From: Flavobacterium eburneipallidum
Lineage (GTDB): Bacteria; Bacteroidota; Bacteroidia; Flavobacteriales; Flavobacteriaceae
DNA: 64,000 nt
Direction of reading: 5' to 3'
NCBI RefSeq assembly: GCF_027111355.2
Contig: NZ_CP114291.2
Coordinates: 1,054,001-1,118,000, forward strand
The position numbers and the translations under genes are program-made. Below the pieces are notes generated by a model, which had not been told where the DNA came from, searched no databases, and saw only the letters and a program-made list of their open reading frames with translations. Positions 1,478 to 32,570 of the stretch are shown one piece after another. Positions within the stretch are counted from its first letter, which is position 1. The number at the start of each line of letters is the position of its first letter.

Positions 1478-2714
1478 TATAGAACGCTGGCAGGAAATCT
1501 TCGAGGCAATAGCCAAAAACAAGTTGAGAACCTTTCTCACGGGGATTTCTGTGGCGTCTGGAATCTTTATTTTAGTTATTCTTTTAGGCGTTGGAAAAGG
1601 ACTCCAAAACGGAATTGAAAAACAATTCGAACGTGATGCTGAAGGAATTATTGAAGTTTGGTCTGGAGTTACGACCAAAGAATATAAAGGTTTAAATCCA
1701 GGCAGACAAATCCAGTTCAGGGATAGCGATTACAATCTTTCGGTTCAAAAATTTGGCGATCAGTTAGACAAAAAAGCATCTTCCTACAATCAATGGAATG
1801 GAGCGGTTGTCTATGGAAAAGAAACTGGAAATTACCAATACCGTGGTGTAAAACCAGATTACCAAGCCATAGAAAACGCTACTATGGTAGAAGGTAGATT
1901 TATCAATGAAAATGACTTGGCAAACGATGAAAAAGTAGGCGTTATTGGTCAGAAAATAAAAATTGATTTGTTTAAAAACAAAAGTCCATTAGGTAAATAT
2001 ATTACTATCAACGGAATTAATTTTAAAGTAGTTGGCGTGTTCACGGATCCTGCTGGAGAAAGAGAGGAAAATAGAATTTATTTGCCCTTGACCACCACAC
2101 AAAAAACGTATGGAGCTGGAGATAAGATCAGTAATCTCTTTTATACTCTTCAAAAAAAGGCTACCTATGAGGAAGCATTAGCCCAATCTACTAAATTTTC
2201 TAAAGAATTAGAACAGCTGTTAAAAAGCAAAAATGTCATTGCTCCCGATGATAGTGGAGGAATAGGAATTCACAATTCCGTAGAAAATGCCAAACAATTT
2301 TATGATTTGAATCTTTATATCAGACTGTTTTTTTGGTGGGTGGGTATTTGTACCATTATAGCAGGAGTCGTTGGTGTGAGTAATATCATGTTGATTATTG
2401 TTAAAGAACGAACCAAAGAAATTGGTATTCGAAAAGCATTGGGTGCAAGCCCCATTTCTATTATCGGAATGATTTTGCACGAATCGATTTTTATTACCAC
2501 AATTGCTGGTTTTATGGGACTTTTGTCCAGTTTGTTGCTGTTAGAATTCGTTGGTCCTTATGTTAAAAGTGAGTATTTCCAGAACCCCGAAGTCGATTTT
2601 AGTATTGCCTTAACCACCTTATTATTGTTAGTGTTTGCAGGAGCTATGGCGGGATTTTTTCCAGCTTATCGTGCGGCTAAAATTAAACCAATTGTTGCAC
2701 TTAGAGACGAATAA
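1470..2714 (+). CDS. MacB-like ABC transporter permease 1
   Basis: 414 residues with the MacB layout: an N-terminal amphipathic start and TM1 (about 20-42), a large periplasmic MacB_PCD-type domain (about 43-275), then three C-terminal helices forming an FtsX domain. The segment NIMLIIVKERTKEIGIRKALGA is the conserved FtsX signature after TM2. Unlike E. coli MacB, the ATPase is a separate polypeptide. The gene starts inside the end of the ATPase gene and is followed 2 nt later by a second, similar permease, so the two probably form a heterodimer. Confidence 0.92.
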   Translation: MFNIERWQEIFEAIAKNKLRTFLTGISVASGIFILVILLGVGKGLQNGIEKQFERDAEGIIEVWSGVTTKEYKGLNPGRQIQFRDSDYNLSVQKFGDQLDKKASSYNQWNGAVVYGKETGNYQYRGVKPDYQAIENATMVEGRFINENDLANDEKVGVIGQKIKIDLFKNKSPLGKYITINGINFKVVGVFTDPAGEREENRIYLPLTTTQKTYGAGDKISNLFYTLQKKATYEEALAQSTKFSKELEQLLKSKNVIAPDDSGGIGIHNSVENAKQFYDLNLYIRLFFWWVGICTIIAGVVGVSNIMLIIVKERTKEIGIRKALGASPISIIGMILHESIFITTIAGFMGLLSSLLLLEFVGPYVKSEYFQNPEVDFSIALTTLLLLVFAGAMAGFFPAYRAAKIKPIVALRDE

Positions 2715-2716
2715 TT

Positions 2717-3979
2717 ATGTTAGATAGAGACAGTTGGGACGAAATTTTAGAAGCGCTTACCGCCAATACCTTCAGGACATTATTGACGGCTTTTGGAGTG
2801 TTTTGGGGTATTTTTATATTGGTAATTTTACTCGCTGCAGGTAAAGGATTAGAAAATGGAGTCAAAAAAGGTTTTGATGGAATAGCAACCAACACGATGT
2901 TTATGTGGACGCAACAAACATCAAAACCCTACAAAGGATTGCCGCAAACTAGAAATTTTGAGTTCAAAAACAGAGATGTGGATGCTTTAAAACAAAGTTT
3001 TCCTGACTTGTTGTATGTTTCTCCACGCAATCAATTGGGCGGTTTTGAAGGTTCAAATAATGTAATTCGTGGTACAAAAACCGGAGCTTTTACCGTTTAT
3101 GGCGATTACCCAGAATTGATTAAACAAGAATCAATGGAGATTACCAAAGGGCGTTTTGTGAATCAACAAGATATTTTCTTAAAACGAAAGGTAGCTGTTA
3201 TTGGACAAGGAGCAATTAAAGATTTATACGATAAGACCGAAGAAGTGCTCGGAACCTATATCAAAGTAAATGGAGTGAATTTTATGGTGGTTGGCGTTTA
3301 TAATTCTAAATCGAATGATGGGAATGCCGAATCGAATCAGAAGAATATTTTCATGCCTTTTACTACTTTCCAGCAAGCTTTTAATTATGGAGATACTGTG
3401 GGTTGGATGGCTTTGACGGCTAATGATGGTGCTTCAATAACCAAGTTGAAGCCCCAAATTTTGGAATTCATGCGAGCCAGACATTCCATTCATCCACAAG
3501 ATGAAAGAGCTATTGGAAAATTCGATTTGTTCGAAGAATATAGCAAAGTGCAGGATTTGTTTGCCATATTAAAGTTCATTGCCTTTTTTGTGGGAACATT
3601 AGTTTTGGTTTCGGGAGTTATTGGAATCTCGAATATTATGCTAATTGTAGTTAAAGAACGCACCAAAGAAATTGGAATTCGTAGAGCTTTAGGAGCAACA
3701 CCAGGAGCTATTCGTTCGCAAATATTATTAGAATCCATCTTCTTGACTTTTTCGGCAGGAATGTTGGGGATTGCAGTAGCAACAGGGGTTTTAGTAATTG
3801 TAAACAACGTTTTAGAAGGAATGCCTAAAGAAGGAATGATGTTCGCCAACCCGAGTGTGGATTTATCAGTAGTGTTTTTTGCTTTAATAATATTGGTTGG
3901 TTCTGGATTATTAGCAGGATTTATCCCAGCGCAAACCGCTATAAAAGTAAAACCCGTTGACGCATTACGAACAGAATAA
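2717..3979 (+). CDS. MacB-like ABC transporter permease 2
   Basis: 420-residue paralogue of the preceding permease with the same topology: TM1 near 20-42, a periplasmic MacB_PCD domain, three C-terminal helices and the FtsX signature KERTKEIGIRRALGA. The two proteins are clearly homologous but divergent, which fits a heteromeric permease pair rather than a recent tandem duplication. It lies 2 nt after permease 1 and 40 nt before the adaptor gene. The large antisense frame over its 3' end is a shadow. Confidence 0.92.
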   Translation: MLDRDSWDEILEALTANTFRTLLTAFGVFWGIFILVILLAAGKGLENGVKKGFDGIATNTMFMWTQQTSKPYKGLPQTRNFEFKNRDVDALKQSFPDLLYVSPRNQLGGFEGSNNVIRGTKTGAFTVYGDYPELIKQESMEITKGRFVNQQDIFLKRKVAVIGQGAIKDLYDKTEEVLGTYIKVNGVNFMVVGVYNSKSNDGNAESNQKNIFMPFTTFQQAFNYGDTVGWMALTANDGASITKLKPQILEFMRARHSIHPQDERAIGKFDLFEEYSKVQDLFAILKFIAFFVGTLVLVSGVIGISNIMLIVVKERTKEIGIRRALGATPGAIRSQILLESIFLTFSAGMLGIAVATGVLVIVNNVLEGMPKEGMMFANPSVDLSVVFFALIILVGSGLLAGFIPAQTAIKVKPVDALRTE

Positions 3980-4019
3980 AATAGCAATCAAAAAATAATC
4001 GAATCAAATAAATAGTAAA

Positions 4020-5135
4020 ATGAAAAAAGGAGTAACCGTAGCCATCTTAATTATAATCGCATTGGTTTTTGTCGGTGCGTTGTATTATTTGTATGCCAAA
4101 AACCAACATCCGCCAGTAGTTTTTCAAACAGAAAAAGCAGAAATCAAAACGATAATTAAAAACACAATTGCCACAGGAAATATCGTTCCTGATGAAGAAG
4201 TATTGATAAAACCCAATATTTCGGGGATAATTGAAGCAGTTTATATCAAAGCGGGAGAAACTATCAAAGCAGGTGATTTGATTGCTAAAATAAAAGTGGT
4301 TGCCAATGTTTCGAATTTGAGCAATACACAAAATCAGGTTCGAACAGCTAAAATAAACTTGGACAACCAAGAAAAATTGTTTCAAAGACAAAAAACCTTA
4401 TTCGACAAAGGTGTTATTTCTGCCAATGATTTTGATGCGGCGCAACTGGCTTATAAACAAGCCAAACAAGATTATGCCGCTTCCAAACAAGGTTATGATA
4501 TTGTAAAAACAGGAACTACTTCGGGTCTTGGGAATTATGCTAATACTTTGATTCGCTCTACCGTCAACGGAATGGTGTTGGATGTTCCTGTGAAAGTAGG
4601 AAATCAGGTTATCGAAAGTAATAATTTCAACGAAGGAACGACTATTGCTAGCGTTGCCGATGTGGGCAAAATGATATTTGTGGGCAAAATAGATGAATCG
4701 GAAGTTGGGAAAATAACCGAAAATTTACCCATCGAAATTACAGTTGGAGCTATCGAAAACAAAAAATTCGATGCCGTTTTAACCTATATTGCTCCCAAAG
4801 GAAAAACCGAAAATGGAGCGATTCAATTTGAAATAAAAGCTTCGATGTCTAACAAGGACAATACTTTTATTCGTGCAGGATTGAGCGCCAATGCTTCTAT
4901 CATTTTAGAAAAAGCCGACAAGGTTTTGGCTATAAAAGAATCCTTAATTCAGTTTGATGCCAAAACCCAAAAACCTTTTGTAGAAGTTGAATCGGGTAGT
5001 CAAAAGTTTGTTAGAAAAGAGTTGGTTCTTGGTGTAAGCGATGGAATTTATGTAGAAATAAAAAGCGGTGTCAAAGCTTCCGATAAAATAAAAGTTTGGA
5101 ATCAAGGCTTGAAAACCGAAGAGCCGAAACCATAA
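4020..5135 (+). CDS. HlyD/MacA-family periplasmic adaptor 1
   Basis: 371 residues. It has an N-terminal signal anchor (about 5-25), then the split lipoyl/barrel-sandwich hybrid pattern (PNISGIIEAVYIKAGETIKAGD, about 63-85, and its partner GMVLDVPVKVGNQV after the hairpin), a coiled-coil hairpin (about 100-160) and a beta-barrel plus membrane-proximal part. Such membrane-fusion proteins link an inner-membrane pump to a TolC channel across the periplasm. Its position between the permeases and the TolC-like gene assigns it to this pump. Confidence 0.92.
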   Translation: MKKGVTVAILIIIALVFVGALYYLYAKNQHPPVVFQTEKAEIKTIIKNTIATGNIVPDEEVLIKPNISGIIEAVYIKAGETIKAGDLIAKIKVVANVSNLSNTQNQVRTAKINLDNQEKLFQRQKTLFDKGVISANDFDAAQLAYKQAKQDYAASKQGYDIVKTGTTSGLGNYANTLIRSTVNGMVLDVPVKVGNQVIESNNFNEGTTIASVADVGKMIFVGKIDESEVGKITENLPIEITVGAIENKKFDAVLTYIAPKGKTENGAIQFEIKASMSNKDNTFIRAGLSANASIILEKADKVLAIKESLIQFDAKTQKPFVEVESGSQKFVRKELVLGVSDGIYVEIKSGVKASDKIKVWNQGLKTEEPKP

Positions 5136-5216
5136 ATTTATCTCAAAAAAGAAATTCAATTTTAAAATAAATGTAAAATAGGTGTAGTATCTTTGCTACG
5201 CTTTCATTCAAAAGAT

Positions 5217-6575
5217 ATGAAGAAAATTAATTGTATTCCACTGGTTATTATCCTGCTGTTTGGCTTGTCGATTCAGGCGCAAACCAAAAAATGGACGTTA
5301 GAAGAATGCGTGAAATACGCCATTGATAACAATATCTCGATCAAACAAACCGAATTAGATACTCAAACAGCTGCTATTGACAAAAAAGGAGCGATTGGAA
5401 ATTTTATTCCTTCGGTAAATTCGAATGCTTCTCACTCTTGGAATGTTGGTTTGAATCAAGATCCAACTACGGGACTTTTGCGAAATCAAACGACTCAATA
5501 TTCTTCTTTTGGAGCAGGTGTTGGAATTGATATTTACAAAGGTTTACAGAATCAAAATACACTTCGAAGAGCCAATCTTTCGATTCTTGCTGCCAAATAT
5601 CAATTGACCAAAATGCAGGAAGATATTGCATTGAATGTAGCCAATGCTTTTTTACAAGTGCTTTTTAATAAAGAAAACCTGAAAGTACAACAACAACAAA
5701 AAGATATTGACCAAAAACAATTGGCGCGTTCAGAAGAATTAGTCAAAGCAGGTTCGGTACCAAGAGGCGATTTGTTAGACATCAAAGCGACTGTAGCCTC
5801 TGATGGACAAAAAGTCGTTGCTGCCGAAAATGCGTTGTTAATATCTAAATTAGCATTAGCTCAATTACTACAGCTCAAGGATTTTTATGATTTTGATGTA
5901 GCCGATGAAACCACCGTTCAAGACGAAAATAATATTCTGGCTCAAACTCCAGTTAGTATTTATGAAAAAGCCAAAGAGCAAAGAACAGAATTAAAAATCG
6001 CTAAAACTAATTTAGAAATTGCTCAAAAAAATGTAGCCATTGCTAAAGGCGCTTTTCAGCCAACGTTACAAGGTTTTTATAATATTAACACGAGAATTTC
6101 GTATGCAGATAGTTATGATTTTCTTACAGGAACATCTCAACCTGCTGCGCCTTTTGGACAACAATTTACCGATAATAGAGGGCAAGCTTTTGGTGCACAA
6201 TTATCGATTCCAATTTTTAACGGTTGGTCAGTCAAAAATAATGTGGAGCGTTCTAAAGTCAGTTTAGAAAAATCTAAAATCGCTGTAGAACAAGAAGAAT
6301 TAACGTTGGAAAGAAATGTTTATACTGCTTTTACCGATGCAAAAGGAGGTTTGAATGCCTATGAATCTTCGCTTTCTGCATTAGAAGCTAGACAAGAAGC
6401 GTATAATTATGCCAAAGAAAAATATGCAGTAGGAATGATGAATTCTTTCGATTTCAATCAGGCGCAAACATTGCTTACTAACGCTCAATCCGAAGTTTTG
6501 AGAACCAAATACGATTACATCTTTAAAATAAAAATACTCGAATTCTATTTTGGAATTCCAATCATAAAAAACTAA
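5217..6575 (+). CDS. TolC-family outer-membrane channel
   Basis: 452 residues from ATG 5217. I prefer this over a TTG eight codons upstream because ATG gives a clean signal peptide (MKKINCIPLVIILLFGLSIQAQ). The mature protein begins KKWTLEECVKYAIDNN, the typical opening of Bacteroidota TolC/OEP proteins, and has two long helical repeats rich in AEN/KAN-type coiled-coil segments. It forms the outer-membrane exit duct of the tripartite pump. It lies 81 nt after adaptor 1 and 6 nt before adaptor 2. Confidence 0.92.
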   Translation: MKKINCIPLVIILLFGLSIQAQTKKWTLEECVKYAIDNNISIKQTELDTQTAAIDKKGAIGNFIPSVNSNASHSWNVGLNQDPTTGLLRNQTTQYSSFGAGVGIDIYKGLQNQNTLRRANLSILAAKYQLTKMQEDIALNVANAFLQVLFNKENLKVQQQQKDIDQKQLARSEELVKAGSVPRGDLLDIKATVASDGQKVVAAENALLISKLALAQLLQLKDFYDFDVADETTVQDENNILAQTPVSIYEKAKEQRTELKIAKTNLEIAQKNVAIAKGAFQPTLQGFYNINTRISYADSYDFLTGTSQPAAPFGQQFTDNRGQAFGAQLSIPIFNGWSVKNNVERSKVSLEKSKIAVEQEELTLERNVYTAFTDAKGGLNAYESSLSALEARQEAYNYAKEKYAVGMMNSFDFNQAQTLLTNAQSEVLRTKYDYIFKIKILEFYFGIPIIKN

Positions 6576-9507: not shown

Positions 9508-10326
9508 TTACTTATTCTCCTCTTTCAAATAAGGTTGAATGGCAATTCCTGCAGCGTCAAAAGCTAATTTGCAACCCTCTAAAGTATCCGACGAAACTAC
9601 TCCAAAATCAGCATTGGTTGCCCATGGTCTAACGGCTAATTGAATTGAACTGTCCGTCAATAATTTTACAGAAACTTCGGCTTCAGGTGTTTTTAGAACT
9701 TTTGGATTCTTGTTTAAAACTTCAGTTATTAAGTCTTTAGCCTTTTTGATATCCGTGTCATAAGAAATAGAAAAAGTCAAATCGGATCTGCGGATTCCTT
9801 CTAAAGAGTAATTGATAATCGTTCCGTTCGACAACGAACCATTTGGAATAAAAATCGTTTGATTGTTACTATTGATTAATTTCGTTACAAATATCTGTAT
9901 TTCGCTTACGGTTCCTGAAACTCCCTGCGCTTCGATAGTATCACCTACTTTGAAGGGTTTGAAAAGAATAATCAACATTCCGCCAGCAAAATTAGATAGC
10001 GATCCTTGTAGTGACAAACCTACAGCAAGCCCAATGGCTCCAAGGATAGCAACAAAAGAAGAGGTTCCTATTCCTAATTTGTCGATAATAGTAACAAATA
10101 ACAATACTCTTAAAACCCAAAGTAAAATATCAGCTAAAAATTTGGTCAGAGTAGGATCTAAATCCCTTTTGACCATGATTTTTCGAATCAATCTGTTAAT
10201 TACACGAATGGTGTAAAGTCCAACAAAAAGAATAAAAAAGGCTGAAATTAATTTTGGTGAATAGTCAATAAATGTTTTGATGATAGTACCGGCATAACCA
10301 GTCAAATAGTTAGGATCTAGTGTCAT
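9508..10326 (-). CDS. MscS-family small-conductance mechanosensitive channel
   Basis: 272 residues, close to E. coli MscS (286). Three TM helices are visible (about 22-44, 66-88, 92-125). The third contains the Gly/Ala-rich pore lining GAIGLAVGLSLQGSLSNFAGG, followed by the beta domain start (KPFKVGDTIEAQGVSGTV). This channel releases osmolytes on hypo-osmotic shock. It lies 21 nt downstream of the Nfu gene on the same strand, so the two may be co-transcribed. Confidence 0.95.
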   Translation of the reverse strand: MTLDPNYLTGYAGTIIKTFIDYSPKLISAFFILFVGLYTIRVINRLIRKIMVKRDLDPTLTKFLADILLWVLRVLLFVTIIDKLGIGTSSFVAILGAIGLAVGLSLQGSLSNFAGGMLIILFKPFKVGDTIEAQGVSGTVSEIQIFVTKLINSNNQTIFIPNGSLSNGTIINYSLEGIRRSDLTFSISYDTDIKKAKDLITEVLNKNPKVLKTPEAEVSVKLLTDSSIQLAVRPWATNADFGVVSSDTLEGCKLAFDAAGIAIQPYLKEENK

Positions 10327-26021: not shown

Positions 26022-27257
26022 ATGGCAAAACCAAAATTAGAATGTTCATTCTGTGGAAGAAAAAAACCAGAAACCAGTTTGCTGATTGCTGGAATTGATG
26101 CGCACATTTGTGATAAATGTATCGAACAAGCCCACGGAATTGTATTAGAAGAATTAAAATCAAGCGGCAAAGCAAATCATTTGCCAACCGACTTGGTATT
26201 GAGAAAACCAAAAGAAATCAGGGCTTTCCTAGATCAATATGTTATTGGTCAGGATCAAACCAAAAAAGTAATGTCGGTGGCGGTTTACAATCACTACAAA
26301 CGTTTGATGCAACAAGAATTGCACGACGAGGTAGAGATTGAAAAAAGCAATATCATCATGGTAGGTCAAACTGGAACTGGGAAAACATTGGTGGCTAAAA
26401 CCATTGCTAAAATGTTAGACGTTCCTTTGGCGATTGTTGATGCAACGGTATTAACAGAAGCTGGTTATGTGGGAGAAGATGTCGAAAGTATTTTGACGCG
26501 TCTTTTGCAGGCTGCTGATTATGATGTAACCAAAGCTGAAAGAGGAATTGTTTTCATTGATGAAATTGATAAAATTGCTCGCAAAAGCGACAATCCATCC
26601 ATCACTCGTGATGTATCAGGAGAAGGGGTGCAACAGGCTTTATTGAAATTATTGGAAGGAACGGTTGTCAATGTTCCACCAAAAGGAGGAAGAAAACATC
26701 CAGACCAAAAATTTGTTGAGGTAAACACCCAAAACATTTTGTTTATCGCTGGTGGTGCATTTGATGGAGTAGAACGTATAATTTCTAAACGTTTGAACCG
26801 TCAAGCGGTTGGTTATTCGACTTCTAAAAATGCTGACAATATAGATAAAGATAATTTACTACAATATATTATTCCAAAAGACATCAAAGATTTTGGATTG
26901 ATTCCGGAGATTATTGGTCGTTTACCAGTTTTAACGCACATGGATCCTTTGGACAGAGCCACTTTGAGAGCGATTTTGACCCAACCTAAAAATGCTTTAA
27001 TCAAACAATATCAAAAGTTGTTTTTGATGGATGAGGTGGAATTCAATATCACAGACGAGGCCTTGGATTTCATTGTAGATAAGGCTTTGGAATACAAATT
27101 AGGAGCTCGTGGATTACGTTCGTTATGCGAAGCTATCTTGACCGATGCGATGTATGAATTGCCAAGTTCTGATGATAAAGTATTAGAAATCGACGTAGAT
27201 TACGCCAAAGAAACTTTGAATAGAAATTTATTGAAACGATTAGAAATTGCTTCGTAA
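26022..27257 (+). CDS. clpX: Clp protease ATPase ClpX
   Basis: 411 residues. It has an N-terminal C4 zinc finger (CSFC near 8-11 and CDKC near 36-39), Walker A GQTGTGKT, Walker [10 protein letters not shown], and sensor 2 in GARGLRS. The ClpP-docking loop, IGF in E. coli, reads AVGY here ([11 protein letters not shown]). It unfolds tagged proteins and feeds them to ClpP. Its last ten codons plus stop are duplicated 1.2 kb downstream, beyond the fic gene. Confidence 0.97.
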
Positions 27258-27259
27258 TT
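27227..27259. repeat. Direct repeat, left copy, inside clpX 3' end
   Basis: 33 bp covering the last codons and stop of clpX. It matches 28421-28453 at 32 of 33 positions, the one change (TTA to TTG) being synonymous in the clpX frame. The pair brackets the fic gene. Confidence 0.9.
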
Positions 27260-27284
27260 CAATTTCAAGCTCAATAAAAAATGA

Positions 27285-27320
27285 AATAAAGCTCAAAAAC
27301 GGATGTTTTTGAGCTTTATT
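27285..27320. terminator. Terminator after clpX
   Basis: Perfect 16-bp stem (27285-27300 with 27305-27320) around loop GGAT. It ends the clpP-clpX transcript and insulates fic. Confidence 0.88.
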
Positions 27321-27350
27321 CGTTAAATTTGTGAGCTCAAAGTGTTTTTT

Positions 27351-28400
27351 ATGGCAAAGTTTAAATTAGATTTAGAAAAAGGAATACTGGATTATATCCA
27401 AAAGCATCCCAATAGTTCCTCAAGAGAAATTTATGATGGATTGGGAAATGTTGTAGCACTTGCGACCGTAAAAAGGACAATTGCAACATTATTAGATAAA
27501 AATTTTGTTACTACAATTGGAAAAGGAAAAGCTACGAAGTACTTTATTGGCAAAGGTTTAGATGTTTTATTTCCAATAGATGTAGCAGTTTATTTTGAAA
27601 AAGAGATTGATGAACGAGAAATAAAAGAAGGATTTAGCTTTGATCTTATCAAAGAAATATTGAGCGTAATTTCGCTGTTTACTGATGAGGAAATGGAAAA
27701 ACTGTCCAATCTTCAAAATAGTTTCACAGAAAATACCTCAAGACTTACGAAAACCGAATATATTAAAGAGTTTGAGCGGTTAGCGATTGATTTGAGTTGG
27801 AAATCTTCTCAAATTGAGGGTAATACTTATTCTTTATTAGAAACTGAAAAATTATTAAAAGAAAAAGAAACGGCGTCAGGTAAGACTAAAGATGAGGCTG
27901 TTATGTTATTGAATCATAAAACCGCATTGGATTTTATTTTGGAGAATCCAGATTATGTAAATCCTCTTTCTGTTTCACGAATTGAAGATATTCACAGTTT
28001 GCTTATTGAAGGTTTGGGTATTGATAGAAACATTCGAAATCGAAGAGTTGGTATTTCAGGAACAAATTACAAACCTTTAGATAATGCCTTTCAAATAAAA
28101 GAAGCATTGGATGATATGTGTATTCTTATCAACAGTAGAGAAAATATTTTTGAGAAGGGATTATTGGCTTTGGTTTTACTTTCTTATATTCAACCTTTTT
28201 CTGATGGGAATAAGAGAACTGCAAGAATTATGAGCAATGCCATTTTAATTCATTATCAGTATTGTCCACTATCTTTTAGGACAGTTGATTCTATTGATTA
28301 TAAAAAAGCGATGCTTGTTTTTTATGAGCAAAATAATATTAGTGTTTTTAAGAATATTTTTGTGGAGCAGTTTGAATTTGCAGTTAAAACGTATTTTTGA
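27351..28400 (+). CDS. Fic-family protein, catalytic His replaced by Gln
   Basis: 349 residues from ATG 27351. An N-terminal winged-helix-like region (about 10-75) and an inhibitory helix with SSQIEGN (152-158, fitting SxxxEGN of class II Fic proteins) come first. The Fic core reads QPFSDGNKRTAR at 281-292. The consensus is HxFxDGNxRxxR, and the base that normally starts AMP transfer is His, so position 281 (CAA, Gln) is a change in a key residue. The rest of the phosphate-binding loop is intact. It may be inactive, regulatory or use another chemistry. It is flanked by a 33-bp duplication of the clpX end. Confidence 0.9.
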   Translation: MAKFKLDLEKGILDYIQKHPNSSSREIYDGLGNVVALATVKRTIATLLDKNFVTTIGKGKATKYFIGKGLDVLFPIDVAVYFEKEIDEREIKEGFSFDLIKEILSVISLFTDEEMEKLSNLQNSFTENTSRLTKTEYIKEFERLAIDLSWKSSQIEGNTYSLLETEKLLKEKETASGKTKDEAVMLLNHKTALDFILENPDYVNPLSVSRIEDIHSLLIEGLGIDRNIRNRRVGISGTNYKPLDNAFQIKEALDDMCILINSRENIFEKGLLALVLLSYIQPFSDGNKRTARIMSNAILIHYQYCPLSFRTVDSIDYKKAMLVFYEQNNISVFKNIFVEQFEFAVKTYF

Positions 28401-28420
28401 TTTAAAACCTTAAATGGAAT

Positions 28421-28453
28421 TTTATTGAAACGATTGGAAATTGCTTCGTAATT
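28421..28453. repeat. Direct repeat, right copy, clpX-end duplicate
   Basis: Non-coding copy of the clpX terminal codons and stop, 20 nt after the fic stop. See the left copy at 27227-27259. Confidence 0.9.
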
Positions 28454-28467
28454 TTTAGTGAAATTAC

Positions 28468-28497
28468 CTTTGTCAAAGTTTTAAAACTTTGACAAAG
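28468..28497. repeat. CTTTGTCAAAG palindrome, copy 1
   Basis: Perfect 30-bp palindrome with half-site CTTTGTCAAAGTTTT. It is the cleanest of six copies in the window. Confidence 0.92.
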
Positions 28498-28524
28498 ATT
28501 AAAGTTTATAGAATTTTAAACCCG

Positions 28525-28552
28525 ACAGTTTTTAAAACCTGTCGGGTTTTTT
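28525..28552. terminator. Possible terminator upstream of serB
   Basis: AACCCGACAG ... CTGTCGGGTT hairpin (around 28519-28549) followed by a T-run. It ends transcription from the fic side and lies about 100 nt before the serB start. Confidence 0.75.
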
Positions 28553-28645
28553 GTTTTTTCTCTCTTTGTGAAAAAATGCAACATATCCTTTTTTATCTAC
28601 AATAGATTGTCGATTTTTGCCCCTCGTAAATCAAAACCAATAAAA

Positions 28646-29881
28646 ATGGCAACAGTAGATAAAGAGATTATTTTATTAAAAGTTTCTGGTCAGGACAAAC
28701 CTGGGGTAACTGCGGGTTTAACATCGATATTAGCTACTTATGATGCCGTTATTTTGGATATAGGTCAAGCAGATATTCACGATACCTTGTCACTGGGAAT
28801 TTTGTTTGAGATACAAGCAGGCTCTAGCTCGGCACCAGTGTTGAAAGATTTATTGTTCAAGGCGTATGAACTTGGAATCAAAGTAAAATTTATTCCAATC
28901 ACTATTCCTGATTACGAAATTTGGGTCAAAGCACAAAGCAAGCAAAAGTATATTATCAATATTTTGGGCGAAAGACTGACTGCCGTGCAATTGGCAGCGG
29001 TAACCAAAATAATGTCCGATCAAGACTTGAATATCGATTCTATCACGCGATTAACGGGCAGAACTTCGGTGGTCGAGAAAGAAGAATATCCTCGTTCTTG
29101 CGTGCAATTATCCGTAACGGGTAATGTGGTCGATAAAACGATGATGACGGCTAATTTTATGGATATTTCTAGAGAATTAGACGTAGATATTTCGTTCCAA
29201 GAGGATAATATGTACCGAAGAAACCGCCGTTTGGTGTGTTTTGATATGGATTCTACTTTAATTCAAACGGAAGTAATTGATGAATTAGCAGAATTAGCTG
29301 GTGTAGGCGAACAAGTGAGAGCCATCACCGAATCAGCGATGAACGGCGAGATCGATTTTAGCGAAAGTTTCAAAAAACGTATGGCTTTGCTGGAAGGTTT
29401 GAGCGAAGAGGTACTGCATAATGTGGCGATTAATTTACCGATAACAAAAGGCGCTCACCGCTTGATGAAAGCTCTGAAATATTACGGTTATAAAACCGCT
29501 ATTCTTTCTGGAGGGTTTACTTATTTTGGTCATTATTTGCAAAAAGAGTTAGGGATTGATTATGTTCACGCCAATGAATTGGAGATTATAGACGGTAAGT
29601 TGACCGGAAATTATATAGGCGAAATTGTAGATGGCGCAAAAAAAGCCGAATACCTACAAGCCATTGCCGAAAAAGAAGGCATTCACATCAACCAAACCAT
29701 TGCTGTGGGAGATGGTGCCAATGATTTGCCAATGATAAACCTAGCAGGTTTAGGAATTGCTTTTCACGCCAAACCCAAAGTAAAAGAAAGTGCAGCGACT
29801 TCTATTTCTAGTTTAGGTCTTGATGGAGTTTTATATTTATTAGGCTATCACGACAGACATATTGATATGATGCAGGAGTAA
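28646..29881 (+). CDS. serB: Phosphoserine phosphatase
   Basis: 411 residues from ATG 28646. Two ACT domains (about 8-85 and 100-180) precede a HAD phosphatase. The HAD motif I is DMDST (Asp200, Asp202), motif III/IV is GDGANDLPM (about 357-365), and SGGFTYF is motif II. It performs the last step of serine synthesis. An ACT-ACT-HAD layout is a known long SerB type, and the ACT domains may sense serine. Confidence 0.95.
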   Translation: MATVDKEIILLKVSGQDKPGVTAGLTSILATYDAVILDIGQADIHDTLSLGILFEIQAGSSSAPVLKDLLFKAYELGIKVKFIPITIPDYEIWVKAQSKQKYIINILGERLTAVQLAAVTKIMSDQDLNIDSITRLTGRTSVVEKEEYPRSCVQLSVTGNVVDKTMMTANFMDISRELDVDISFQEDNMYRRNRRLVCFDMDSTLIQTEVIDELAELAGVGEQVRAITESAMNGEIDFSESFKKRMALLEGLSEEVLHNVAINLPITKGAHRLMKALKYYGYKTAILSGGFTYFGHYLQKELGIDYVHANELEIIDGKLTGNYIGEIVDGAKKAEYLQAIAEKEGIHINQTIAVGDGANDLPMINLAGLGIAFHAKPKVKESAATSISSLGLDGVLYLLGYHDRHIDMMQE

Positions 29882-30874: not shown

Positions 30875-31366
30875 TTATGGATTATTAATCAATTTCTGAA
30901 TTTCAATTTCAAGTTTCTTTTTTTCAAGTGTAAGTATTTCATCATCTAATTTTTTTGTTCGATTCCATTTAATAAATCCAAACAAAATTAAAAAAATACC
31001 AACTGGAAAAAATATCCAAAAAATTATACTATAAATTTTTGTGTATGAATTTCTAGATATCAATTCATTGTATTTGTTTTCACAAGAAATTTGATTTATC
31101 TCATTTTCAAGATGATTTTTCTTGACGATTAATAAATCAGTATCGGTTGCAGTTTGGAGATTAGAATTTATCTTATCTGCTTCTTTTTTGTTACTTTCTA
31201 TTTTATAATTTAAAATACTTAACTCATTTTTTATCTTAATTGAAAGTACTTCTAATTCTTGCTTTTCTTTTAAGGGATAATAAACCGTCATAACAATAAG
31301 TAAAATACCTACTGTAACTAAATATTTATATAAATTTTCTGAACCTGAAAAGAAACTATTTTCCAT
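30875..31366 (-). CDS. Unrecognised two-TM coiled-coil protein
   Basis: 163 residues that I do not recognise. TM1 lies at about 15-32 and TM2 at about 111-132. A charged coiled coil (about 35-100) between them is on one side of the membrane, and a second charged helix (about 140-160) follows. There is no signal peptidase site. The ATG overlaps the stop of the upstream gene by 11 nt, so translation is probably coupled and the two proteins likely work together. Base composition is more AT-rich than neighbouring housekeeping genes. Confidence 0.75.
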   Translation of the reverse strand: MENSFFSGSENLYKYLVTVGILLIVMTVYYPLKEKQELEVLSIKIKNELSILNYKIESNKKEADKINSNLQTATDTDLLIVKKNHLENEINQISCENKYNELISRNSYTKIYSIIFWIFFPVGIFLILFGFIKWNRTKKLDDEILTLEKKKLEIEIQKLINNP

Positions 31367-32288
31367 TTGAAAAGGGTTTTAAAAGTTCATTAGGATTAAT
31401 TTTTAAAGTATCAAGACCTATTGCTGTTTGGTCTAAAACTCGTCTGTTTTTATCAATTAATTTACGAATTTGTGGGTCTTGTTGATTATCAAGATTACCG
31501 CAGGAAGCTACACTCAATAAGAATGCCAAAATTGCTAATGATTTACCAGCTTTAATTAATTCAATACTCCCTCTTGATTGTAAACTAATTTTGACGAAAA
31601 AATCTTCTAAATTATCGTCAAACTTCAATTCTTTGTTAATATCATGTATTAAAGTATCAATGTTATCCATTAAACTTCTAATATCTTCAAAATTTATATT
31701 TTCATCTTTTAATATATTTAAAACAAAGTGAGTCTCTTCACCTTTTTTAAATAAATTCCCTATTTCTTTGTCAATAAAAGGTGCAAATCTATTAATGTTA
31801 CTAATTGAATGTTGATTTGATTTGACTTGAAAAAAAACTGGATTTAAGCTTCTAATATTTTTAATTGTAAGCCATTCTATTCGTCTTCTTTTAAAATGTG
31901 TTCCGTTACCTATTAATTCTGGCACTTCATAAGCTTCGTCATCTGCTACTCTCCCAAATGCTAATCGATCTGAATTTCGGCTAGGCACAACTACAATGTC
32001 ATTCTTTTTTAATGTTAAAAAAGTATTGATTTTATTGTAAGCAGCTGTTACTTTACCCTTGTTTTTACTTACACTTCTATCTAACTTATCTGTTATTGCA
32101 ATTTTTTCAGTTATATAGCCTTTATTGTTTTTTTTTAGTTCATCTAATGTAAAATAATCCCAACCAATGGCTATATAATCTCCCTTTGTAAATTCATCAA
32201 AATGCTCACCATATGTTGTCCTTACGAACCAATAGTTGACACCATTACCAACATTATTTACTCTACCTAATATTTCGTTAACTGTCAT
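31356..32288 (-). CDS. Unrecognised protein with N-terminal EVE/PUA-like domain
   Basis: 310 residues. The first 130 or so contain NYWFVRTTYGEHFDEFTKGDYIAIGW and later KKNDIVVVPSRNSDRLAFGRV. This resembles the EVE/PUA-like domain at the N-terminus of some restriction-system proteins, an assignment made by pattern memory. The middle (about 190-245) is helical and charged. A hydrophobic stretch SLAILAFLLSVASC (about 262-275) may be a TM helix. It is the first gene of a two-gene operon with the coiled-coil membrane protein. A TATTTTTG -7-like element lies at 32316-32323 on the minus strand. Confidence 0.7.
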   Translation of the reverse strand: MTVNEILGRVNNVGNGVNYWFVRTTYGEHFDEFTKGDYIAIGWDYFTLDELKKNNKGYITEKIAITDKLDRSVSKNKGKVTAAYNKINTFLTLKKNDIVVVPSRNSDRLAFGRVADDEAYEVPELIGNGTHFKRRRIEWLTIKNIRSLNPVFFQVKSNQHSISNINRFAPFIDKEIGNLFKKGEETHFVLNILKDENINFEDIRSLMDNIDTLIHDINKELKFDDNLEDFFVKISLQSRGSIELIKAGKSLAILAFLLSVASCGNLDNQQDPQIRKLIDKNRRVLDQTAIGLDTLKINPNELLKPFSNGK

Positions 32289-32464: not shown

Positions 32465-32570
32465 GAGTTTGCGTGAGGGATGGAAGCGGCATCCTTTTGT
32501 GGAGTGCTAACGGAACAAAAGATACAGCGGACAGCCCGACCCGTAGTTTTTCACGGAGGGTCACGCCCCA
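32465..32570. ncRNA. Candidate structured RNA, conserved flavobacterial type
   Basis: Outer stem GCGTGA (32471-32476) with TCACGC (32561-32566), then GACCC with GGGTC, and inner CTTTTGT with ACAAAAG. The text GCGTGAGGGATGGAAGCGG and the AGCGGACAGCCCG segment resemble a spacer element I recall from many Flavobacteriia, of the flavo-1 or 6S-like kind. Strand and class are uncertain. GC is much higher than the flanks. The remaining gap (32289-32464, 32571-32761) holds only AT-rich spacer and short AATTACGAATTA repeats near 32675. Confidence 0.5.

Follow-up and report, generated by a model that had tools for sequence, protein, structure and literature searches.

A fic gene enclosed by two copies of the clpX 3′ end in Flavobacterium eburneipallidum, probably inserted as a single-gene cassette

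We analysed a window of 64,000 nucleotides from Flavobacterium eburneipallidum (contig NZ_CP114291.2), in which a fic gene lies directly behind clpX. All genes and features of this locus are read on the plus strand. The intact clpX reading frame (26022–27257, 411 aa; Pfam AAA_2, zf-C4_ClpX and ClpB_D2-small) runs into the proximal copy (P, 27211–27259) of a 49-nt direct repeat, which forms the clpX end now in use. P is followed by a putative fic control block of boxes and a hairpin (27268–27340), by fic itself (27351–28400, 349 aa, Pfam Fic) and by the distal copy of the clpX 3′ end (D, 28405–28453), recognized both as a direct repeat and by alignment of its native flank; its last 43 bp up to the stop occupy 28409–28451. 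Behind D lies the native clpX–serB spacer (28452–28645), which matches the empty sites of two relatives (G139 and G002) and has a dispersed palindrome at about 28460–28503 as an addition within it. A serB-like gene with ACT domains and a HAD hydrolase domain comes next (28646–29881).

The initial annotation had reported that the 33 bases ending clpX recur 1,194 bp downstream with one synonymous change and that fic lies between the copies, and both observations held. Positions 27227–27259 and 28421–28453 are identical at 32 of 33 sites, the sole mismatch being a silent TTA to TTG change (Leu). This is the one further occurrence of the 33-mer in the window, and no copy with three or fewer mismatches turned up in 100 dinucleotide-shuffled versions of the window. 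Read from its ATG, fic is the only ORF of at least 60 aa between the copies. The extent of the repeat had to be revised: the 33-mer does include the clpX stop (27255–27257) but runs two bases past it, and ungapped extension to the left yields the 49-nt repeat, with 90% identity. Two of the differences added by this extension would be residue changes in the clpX frame (R to G and N to I). When positions 27000–28700 were searched against the whole genome, a full-length match was found at the locus itself only, and the 77 other matches were mostly short bits of two dispersed palindromic sequences behind D. These palindromes (28460–28503 and 28515–28560) have dozens of matches across the genome.

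The Fic protein matched the Pfam Fic domain (2.2e-13) and, weakly, Penicillinase_R (1.3e-5). It comprises an N-terminal winged-helix-like region, an SSQIEGN motif and a Fic domain with QPFSDGNKRTAR (residues 281–292, window 28191–28226). An AlphaFold2 model built with 31 sequences had a pLDDT of 86.5, and its best Foldseek matches were FICD (8.7e-9) and other Fic structures. The Fic motif is HPFx(D/E)GN and includes the catalytic histidine. Here, all 81 relatives of at least 60% identity carry QxFxDGN(K/Q)R, and alignment with FICD places a Gln at the catalytic His position in each of the 81, while the inhibitory-type motif SSQIEGN is present in 80 of them. The protein has the Fic fold and an inhibitory-type motif before the Fic domain in common with the class II Fic protein FICD, but differs from it in the Gln that replaces the catalytic His and in the winged-helix-like N-terminal region. 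This points to a distinct, well conserved subfamily of Gln-for-His Fic proteins, of which a different activity or a function in regulation would be expected. Residues 142–343 also matched the PADLOC PDC-S04 profiles, which carry no curated cut-off (best 3.2e-20). Toxicity, regulation and defence are presumed properties of this Fic. Among the ORFs of at least 60 aa between the repeats there is no separate antitoxin gene.

Comparison of the clpX–serB region in relatives with and without fic, which the initial annotation had proposed, revealed single-copy empty sites. G139 and G002, which are closest to the window by clpX, carry one clpX end, no fic and 148–153 bp from clpX to serB; like all the empty-site genomes used here, they are other species rather than strains of the carrier species. 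The DNA behind D in the window aligned with the empty sites of G139 and G002 (z 25.3 and 14.4, respectively, over shuffled sequence), whereas that behind P did not match their spacer (z 0.9 and −0.6). The same was true for G169 (z 32.3 and 23.0 behind D, 0 and −1.4 behind P) and for F. xanthum compared with three relatives (z 40.0–42.5 behind D, −1.0 to 0.2 behind P); single-copy empty sites were also present in relatives of F. xanthum. Since only the DNA behind D aligns with empty sites, D stands at the native boundary and is preceded by the cassette. From these sequence comparisons, the arrangement at clpX is an insertion that left the gene end on both sides, as originally suggested.

Two findings that had been named as evidence against insertion, fic in all relatives and both repeat copies in relatives without fic, did not materialize in the genus, strong distal copies being confined to loci with an insert. 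Five of 199 genus genomes carry fic at E 1e-40 (those of the window, G169, G156, G028 and G132), the G132 gene being 58% identical and located away from clpX; in the family sample it was found at E 1e-60 in 7 of 299 genomes, the window's own included. It lies directly behind clpX in six genomes, namely the window's, G169, G156, G028, G592 and G611, and G611 and F. xanthum have identical fic genes. A D copy is present in five of these six, G156 being without one. The clpX repeat measures from 43 to about 78 bp across carriers, several of which may share one junction, with matches of 43/43 in G592 and 47/47 in G611, and a D copy in G028 that is longer than the others (74–78 bp). One clpX position is used in six genomes, a pattern that common descent would likewise give. 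We also surveyed 99 genus clpX loci from 98 genomes (G165 was entered twice) for distal copies, taking a score of at least 40 as strong; the reversed-sequence control reached at most 14.5. Strong copies occurred at three of the four fic-bearing loci and at one of the 95 fic-less loci, always behind an insert (scores: G146, 114.5; G028, 58; F. xanthum, 47; G169, 40.5). The insert in G146 (L014, clpX-oriented 1578–5854) is unrelated cargo at the same site: between clpX and a distal copy of 152 bp stands a gene for a leucine-rich-repeat protein of 1,276 aa that carries a secretion sorting tail. The next score (21.5, L030) fell short of the gene end, and all others were 16 or lower, with L191 and L043 among them touching the gene end.

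Upstream of fic, boxes reading AGCTCAA or TTGAGCT stand at −83, −61, −42 and −17 from the ATG, and a hairpin (TAAAGCTCAAAAA-loop-TTTTTGAGCTTTA) occupies 27287–27318. GCTCAAA was found on either strand within 160 bp upstream of fic in 63 of 81 family members, a count in which three members have less than 70 bp of upstream DNA, and the box layout is alike at clpX and non-clpX fic sites. These boxes probably allow the Fic protein to regulate its own promoter. The exact hairpin occurs in 22 of 398 genus genomes, once per genome, and lies behind clpX in 20 of the 22. Eight of these genomes have fic within 1.5 kb of the hairpin; the remaining 14 do not, and in all 14 the hairpin is at clpX (seven of the 14 are without fic genome-wide at E 1e-40, and the other seven were judged by neighbourhood). 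Its start lies 28 or 29 bp past the clpX stop in 8 of 11 surveyed hairpin loci, with or without fic. On the simplest reading, the 14 fic-less hairpins are apparent relics from which fic was lost and the control block left behind, perhaps retained since the hairpin now ends clpX transcripts. In G678 and G666 hairpin and fic lie together away from clpX, one behind a putative gpmI and the other 187 bp from a tRNA-Thr gene; in G666 the exact hairpin is 3′ of fic and an imperfect one in front. On a short named contig (L054), fic stands between fragments of a clpX end, with no clpX gene upstream, and another hairpin is located at the far end of the contig.

Hairpin-like sequences stand on both sides of fic at the non-clpX sites L056, L057, L058, L229 and L230, and L057 and L230 have a tRNA-Thr gene 187 bp upstream. 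At L225 (G609) and L181 (G106), small reading frames that on visual inspection resemble toxin-antitoxin genes are found behind clpX, close to the hairpin. In G609, which has the hairpin but no fic, two of them look like a toxin-antitoxin pair and are followed by a weak clpX-end match (score 17, control 12), which may be what is left of a distal copy beyond a different cassette.

Across Bacteroidota, we tested the 500-bp flanks of 74 of 80 named fic loci for direct repeats, using 242 other genes on the same contigs as control; L121 (same region as L123) and L054, L074, L075, L087 and L112 (short flanks) were left out. Repeats scoring at least 30 were found at 12 of the 74 fic loci and at none of the 242 control genes, and at a score of at least 20 the numbers were 15 and 5, respectively (Fisher p 6e-7). 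Six of the 12 high scorers are the clpX loci L053, L055 and L060, the hairpin repeats L057 and L058, and the multi-copy L116. The others have two-copy repeats, which duplicate the 3′ end of leuS (L088, 92 bp), the 3′ end of a lysR-type gene (L098, 98 bp) and the 5′ end of a gene for a sugar-binding regulator (L129, 110 bp), or lie in unassigned stretches (L126, L123 and L070). Outside these 12, a pdxH-like gene has its 5′ end duplicated at L077 (score 20.5), and L091 has an 85-bp repeat with P beyond 500 bp and a third partial copy. Repeat length at targets other than clpX is 37–110 bp. The repeats of L100, L116 and L079 have more than two copies within their contigs. G321, considered as a second empty-site case, was dropped as a target duplication because its 71-bp flanking repeat has further copies in the G321 genome. 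At this locus (L212), repeat copies of about 61–71 bp at 9763, 10467 and 11762 separate fic and small genes in an array-like manner.

Within the 43-bp core, P and D differ at no position in G592, at one in G611/F. xanthum and in G028, and at five in the window and in G169, while between species P copies differ at 4–8 positions and D copies at 3–9. The D copies of G592 and G611 show three differences, all three of which also separate their P copies. D, which completes no gene, follows the host clpX in G592, G611 and G028, which points either to homogenisation of the copies or to their renewed formation in every lineage. The likeness of D to the host's own clpX is limited to the core in G028, where the adjoining 31 bp on the left have six mismatches with its own clpX and two with that of another species. 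Over 49 positions, D of G169 has two differences to the clpX of other species versus five to its own, and D of the window has seven to its own P versus six or seven to several other species. These comparisons allow no firm choice between long target duplication and one-sided homologous recombination. The idea that freely variable right junctions prove an illegitimate join was weakened, because four carriers (the window's genome, G169, G592 and G611) allow D to be read as beginning at about one and the same codon of clpX, with the D of G028 being longer. Leaving out the identical pair, fourfold-site identity between carriers was 0.38–0.69 for fic and 0.40–0.58 for clpX; this about equal divergence fits long residence with repeated loss. 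Silent-site dating was abandoned in favour of relative statements, as fic and clpX are both saturated between species. The fic protein tree of the six genomes is compatible with the clpX tree, with five of eight inner forks open. When placed on a larger clpX tree, the fic and solo labels required a minimum of four and five changes, respectively, no fewer than shuffled labels, a tally that does not discriminate between rare gain with frequent loss and frequent gain.

Carriage by phage or plasmid was also considered and rejected. No fic relatives were found in the viral contigs searched, four partial matches in phages were all below 60% identity, and among 26 plasmid records with fic matches one exceeded 60% (Bacteroides finegoldii, 63%). 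An integron-like reading was discarded as well, since the 25-bp motif common to the G146 insert and L054 falls within an Rfam DUF805 RNA match. This RNA motif (RF03081) lies in the inserted stretch near clpX ends at both L014 and L054.

We consider it rather probable that control block and fic form a single-gene cassette that was inserted with a long target duplication and has been repeatedly lost, its clpX ends being homogenised or renewed. The cassette lies just behind the clpX stop, with about 43–49 bp of the clpX 3′ end duplicated on its far side, and would have entered by a target-duplicating recombination for which it brings no enzyme; the route could be either long target duplication or clpX homology on one side with an illegitimate join on the other. 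At clpX it would be an old resident of the species group, with ends kept alike by mutual recombination or renewed by re-insertion, and crossing over between these ends could delete it cleanly. Fic itself would be kept for its effect on the cell or on phages. Speaking for this account are the empty sites of G139 and G002, the native flank behind D, the recurrence of fic behind clpX with a D copy in five of six genomes, the hairpins without fic, the host-like D copies, the about equal fourfold divergence of fic and clpX, and the excess of flanking repeats at fic loci. Counting against it, the genomes include no same-species pair with and without fic, G156 has no D, the D copies of G169 and the window are not closest to their own clpX, six of the 12 high-scoring family loci are clpX cases, hairpin repeats or multi-copy, the tally on the clpX tree fits few or many gains, and the D start that four carriers appear to share also fits a site-specific enzyme. 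Such an enzyme, a recombinase supplied in trans, would join a small fic circle at a fixed clpX core of about 43 bp, the copies being attL and attR. The identical left junction, the similar D start in several species and a repeat spanning the 3′ end of a gene, a classic place for integration sites, speak for it, and the use of one clpX position by several species keeps it conceivable. However, the integrase attachment site that the initial annotation had envisaged found no backing at the locus: between the copies there is fic alone and no integrase, and a search of the genome for tyrosine-recombinase domains (PF00589) had its nearest match about 147 kb away. Moreover, both copies track the host sequence in G592, G611 and G028, other family targets are flanked by unrelated repeats of 37–110 bp, and the viral contigs hold no relative, so that we regard site-specific integration as quite unlikely.

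Recombination from a donor species that already had clpX, hairpin and fic in a row, with a crossover in clpX on the left and an illegitimate join into the recipient clpX end on the right, would account for the duplication as well as for the unvarying left side, with no enzyme involved. It would also suit G169, where P looks foreign and D native, and the 74–78-bp D of G028. We nevertheless give it a low probability: P matches D in G592, G611 and G028, the alike fourfold divergence of fic and clpX between carriers means that no recent donor is visible, and on its own it leaves the first arrival at clpX, as well as leuS and the other targets, unexplained. A different question is whether the hairpin is a native clpX terminator behind which fic settled later, rather than a fic relic. 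Its terminator-like shape, its intact state in 14 genomes without fic nearby (14/14 at clpX) and a similar hairpin 3′ of serB in this genome and in G002 speak for this origin, but fic has these boxes in front of it also at sites other than clpX and in relatives that are more distant, several solo sites (e.g., G153) retain more of the fic promoter, and the hairpin is rare (22/398) and scattered over the clpX tree, all of which makes a native terminator unlikely. Returning to the cassette reading, it could be generalized in that winged-helix Gln Fic genes would make up a class of selfish single-gene cassettes across Bacteroidota, inserting with long target duplications and no transposase or integrase of their own, persisting at a hot spot through homogenisation of their own target copies or re-entry between them, and using the operator hairpin for both recombination and control. 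We put this forward as a long shot.

Insertion with long target duplication was reportedly described for restriction-modification genes by Nobusato and co-workers in 2000. Long, variable target duplications around such genes have been described by Kobayashi's group (PMC3031569). The locus described here shares with them a small toxin-type unit, no visible mobility enzyme, long and possibly variable duplications of the target and a single copy at empty sites (here in other species), and differs in consisting of one fic gene, in the recurrent clpX position in several species and in the hairpin relics. Integrative elements sit at the 3′ ends of tRNA or protein genes and, as here, have the gene end on both sides of the insert; unlike them, the fic insert has no integrase, holds one gene only and has other targets elsewhere. 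Homology-facilitated illegitimate recombination is defined in PMC3240628 and is the model proposed for type VI effector arrays in PMC5361080. As outlined there, these arrays likewise gain a new gene next to a conserved anchor, with the former 3′ piece remaining downstream, but the piece that they keep is an immunity gene, whereas here it is a clpX fragment. The literature searched, with most subscription papers outside it, contained no description of fic behind clpX, of a Fic protein with Gln for the catalytic histidine and a winged helix, or of direct repeats around a family of fic genes. As a single genus still has sites that are empty, sites that are filled and bear a duplication matching the host, and sites with nothing but the control block, the entry and exit of a lone toxin-type gene without a visible mobility enzyme could be tested in culturable strains.

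Elsewhere in the window, the ORF at 30875–31366 had no match in the PADLOC search, and its neighbour on the minus strand (31356–32288) matched the defence candidate PDC-S02 (4.7e-15, residues 18–143). The sole Rfam match above cut-off in the window was a Flavo-1 RNA (RF01705, 49.2 bits) at 32466–32545.
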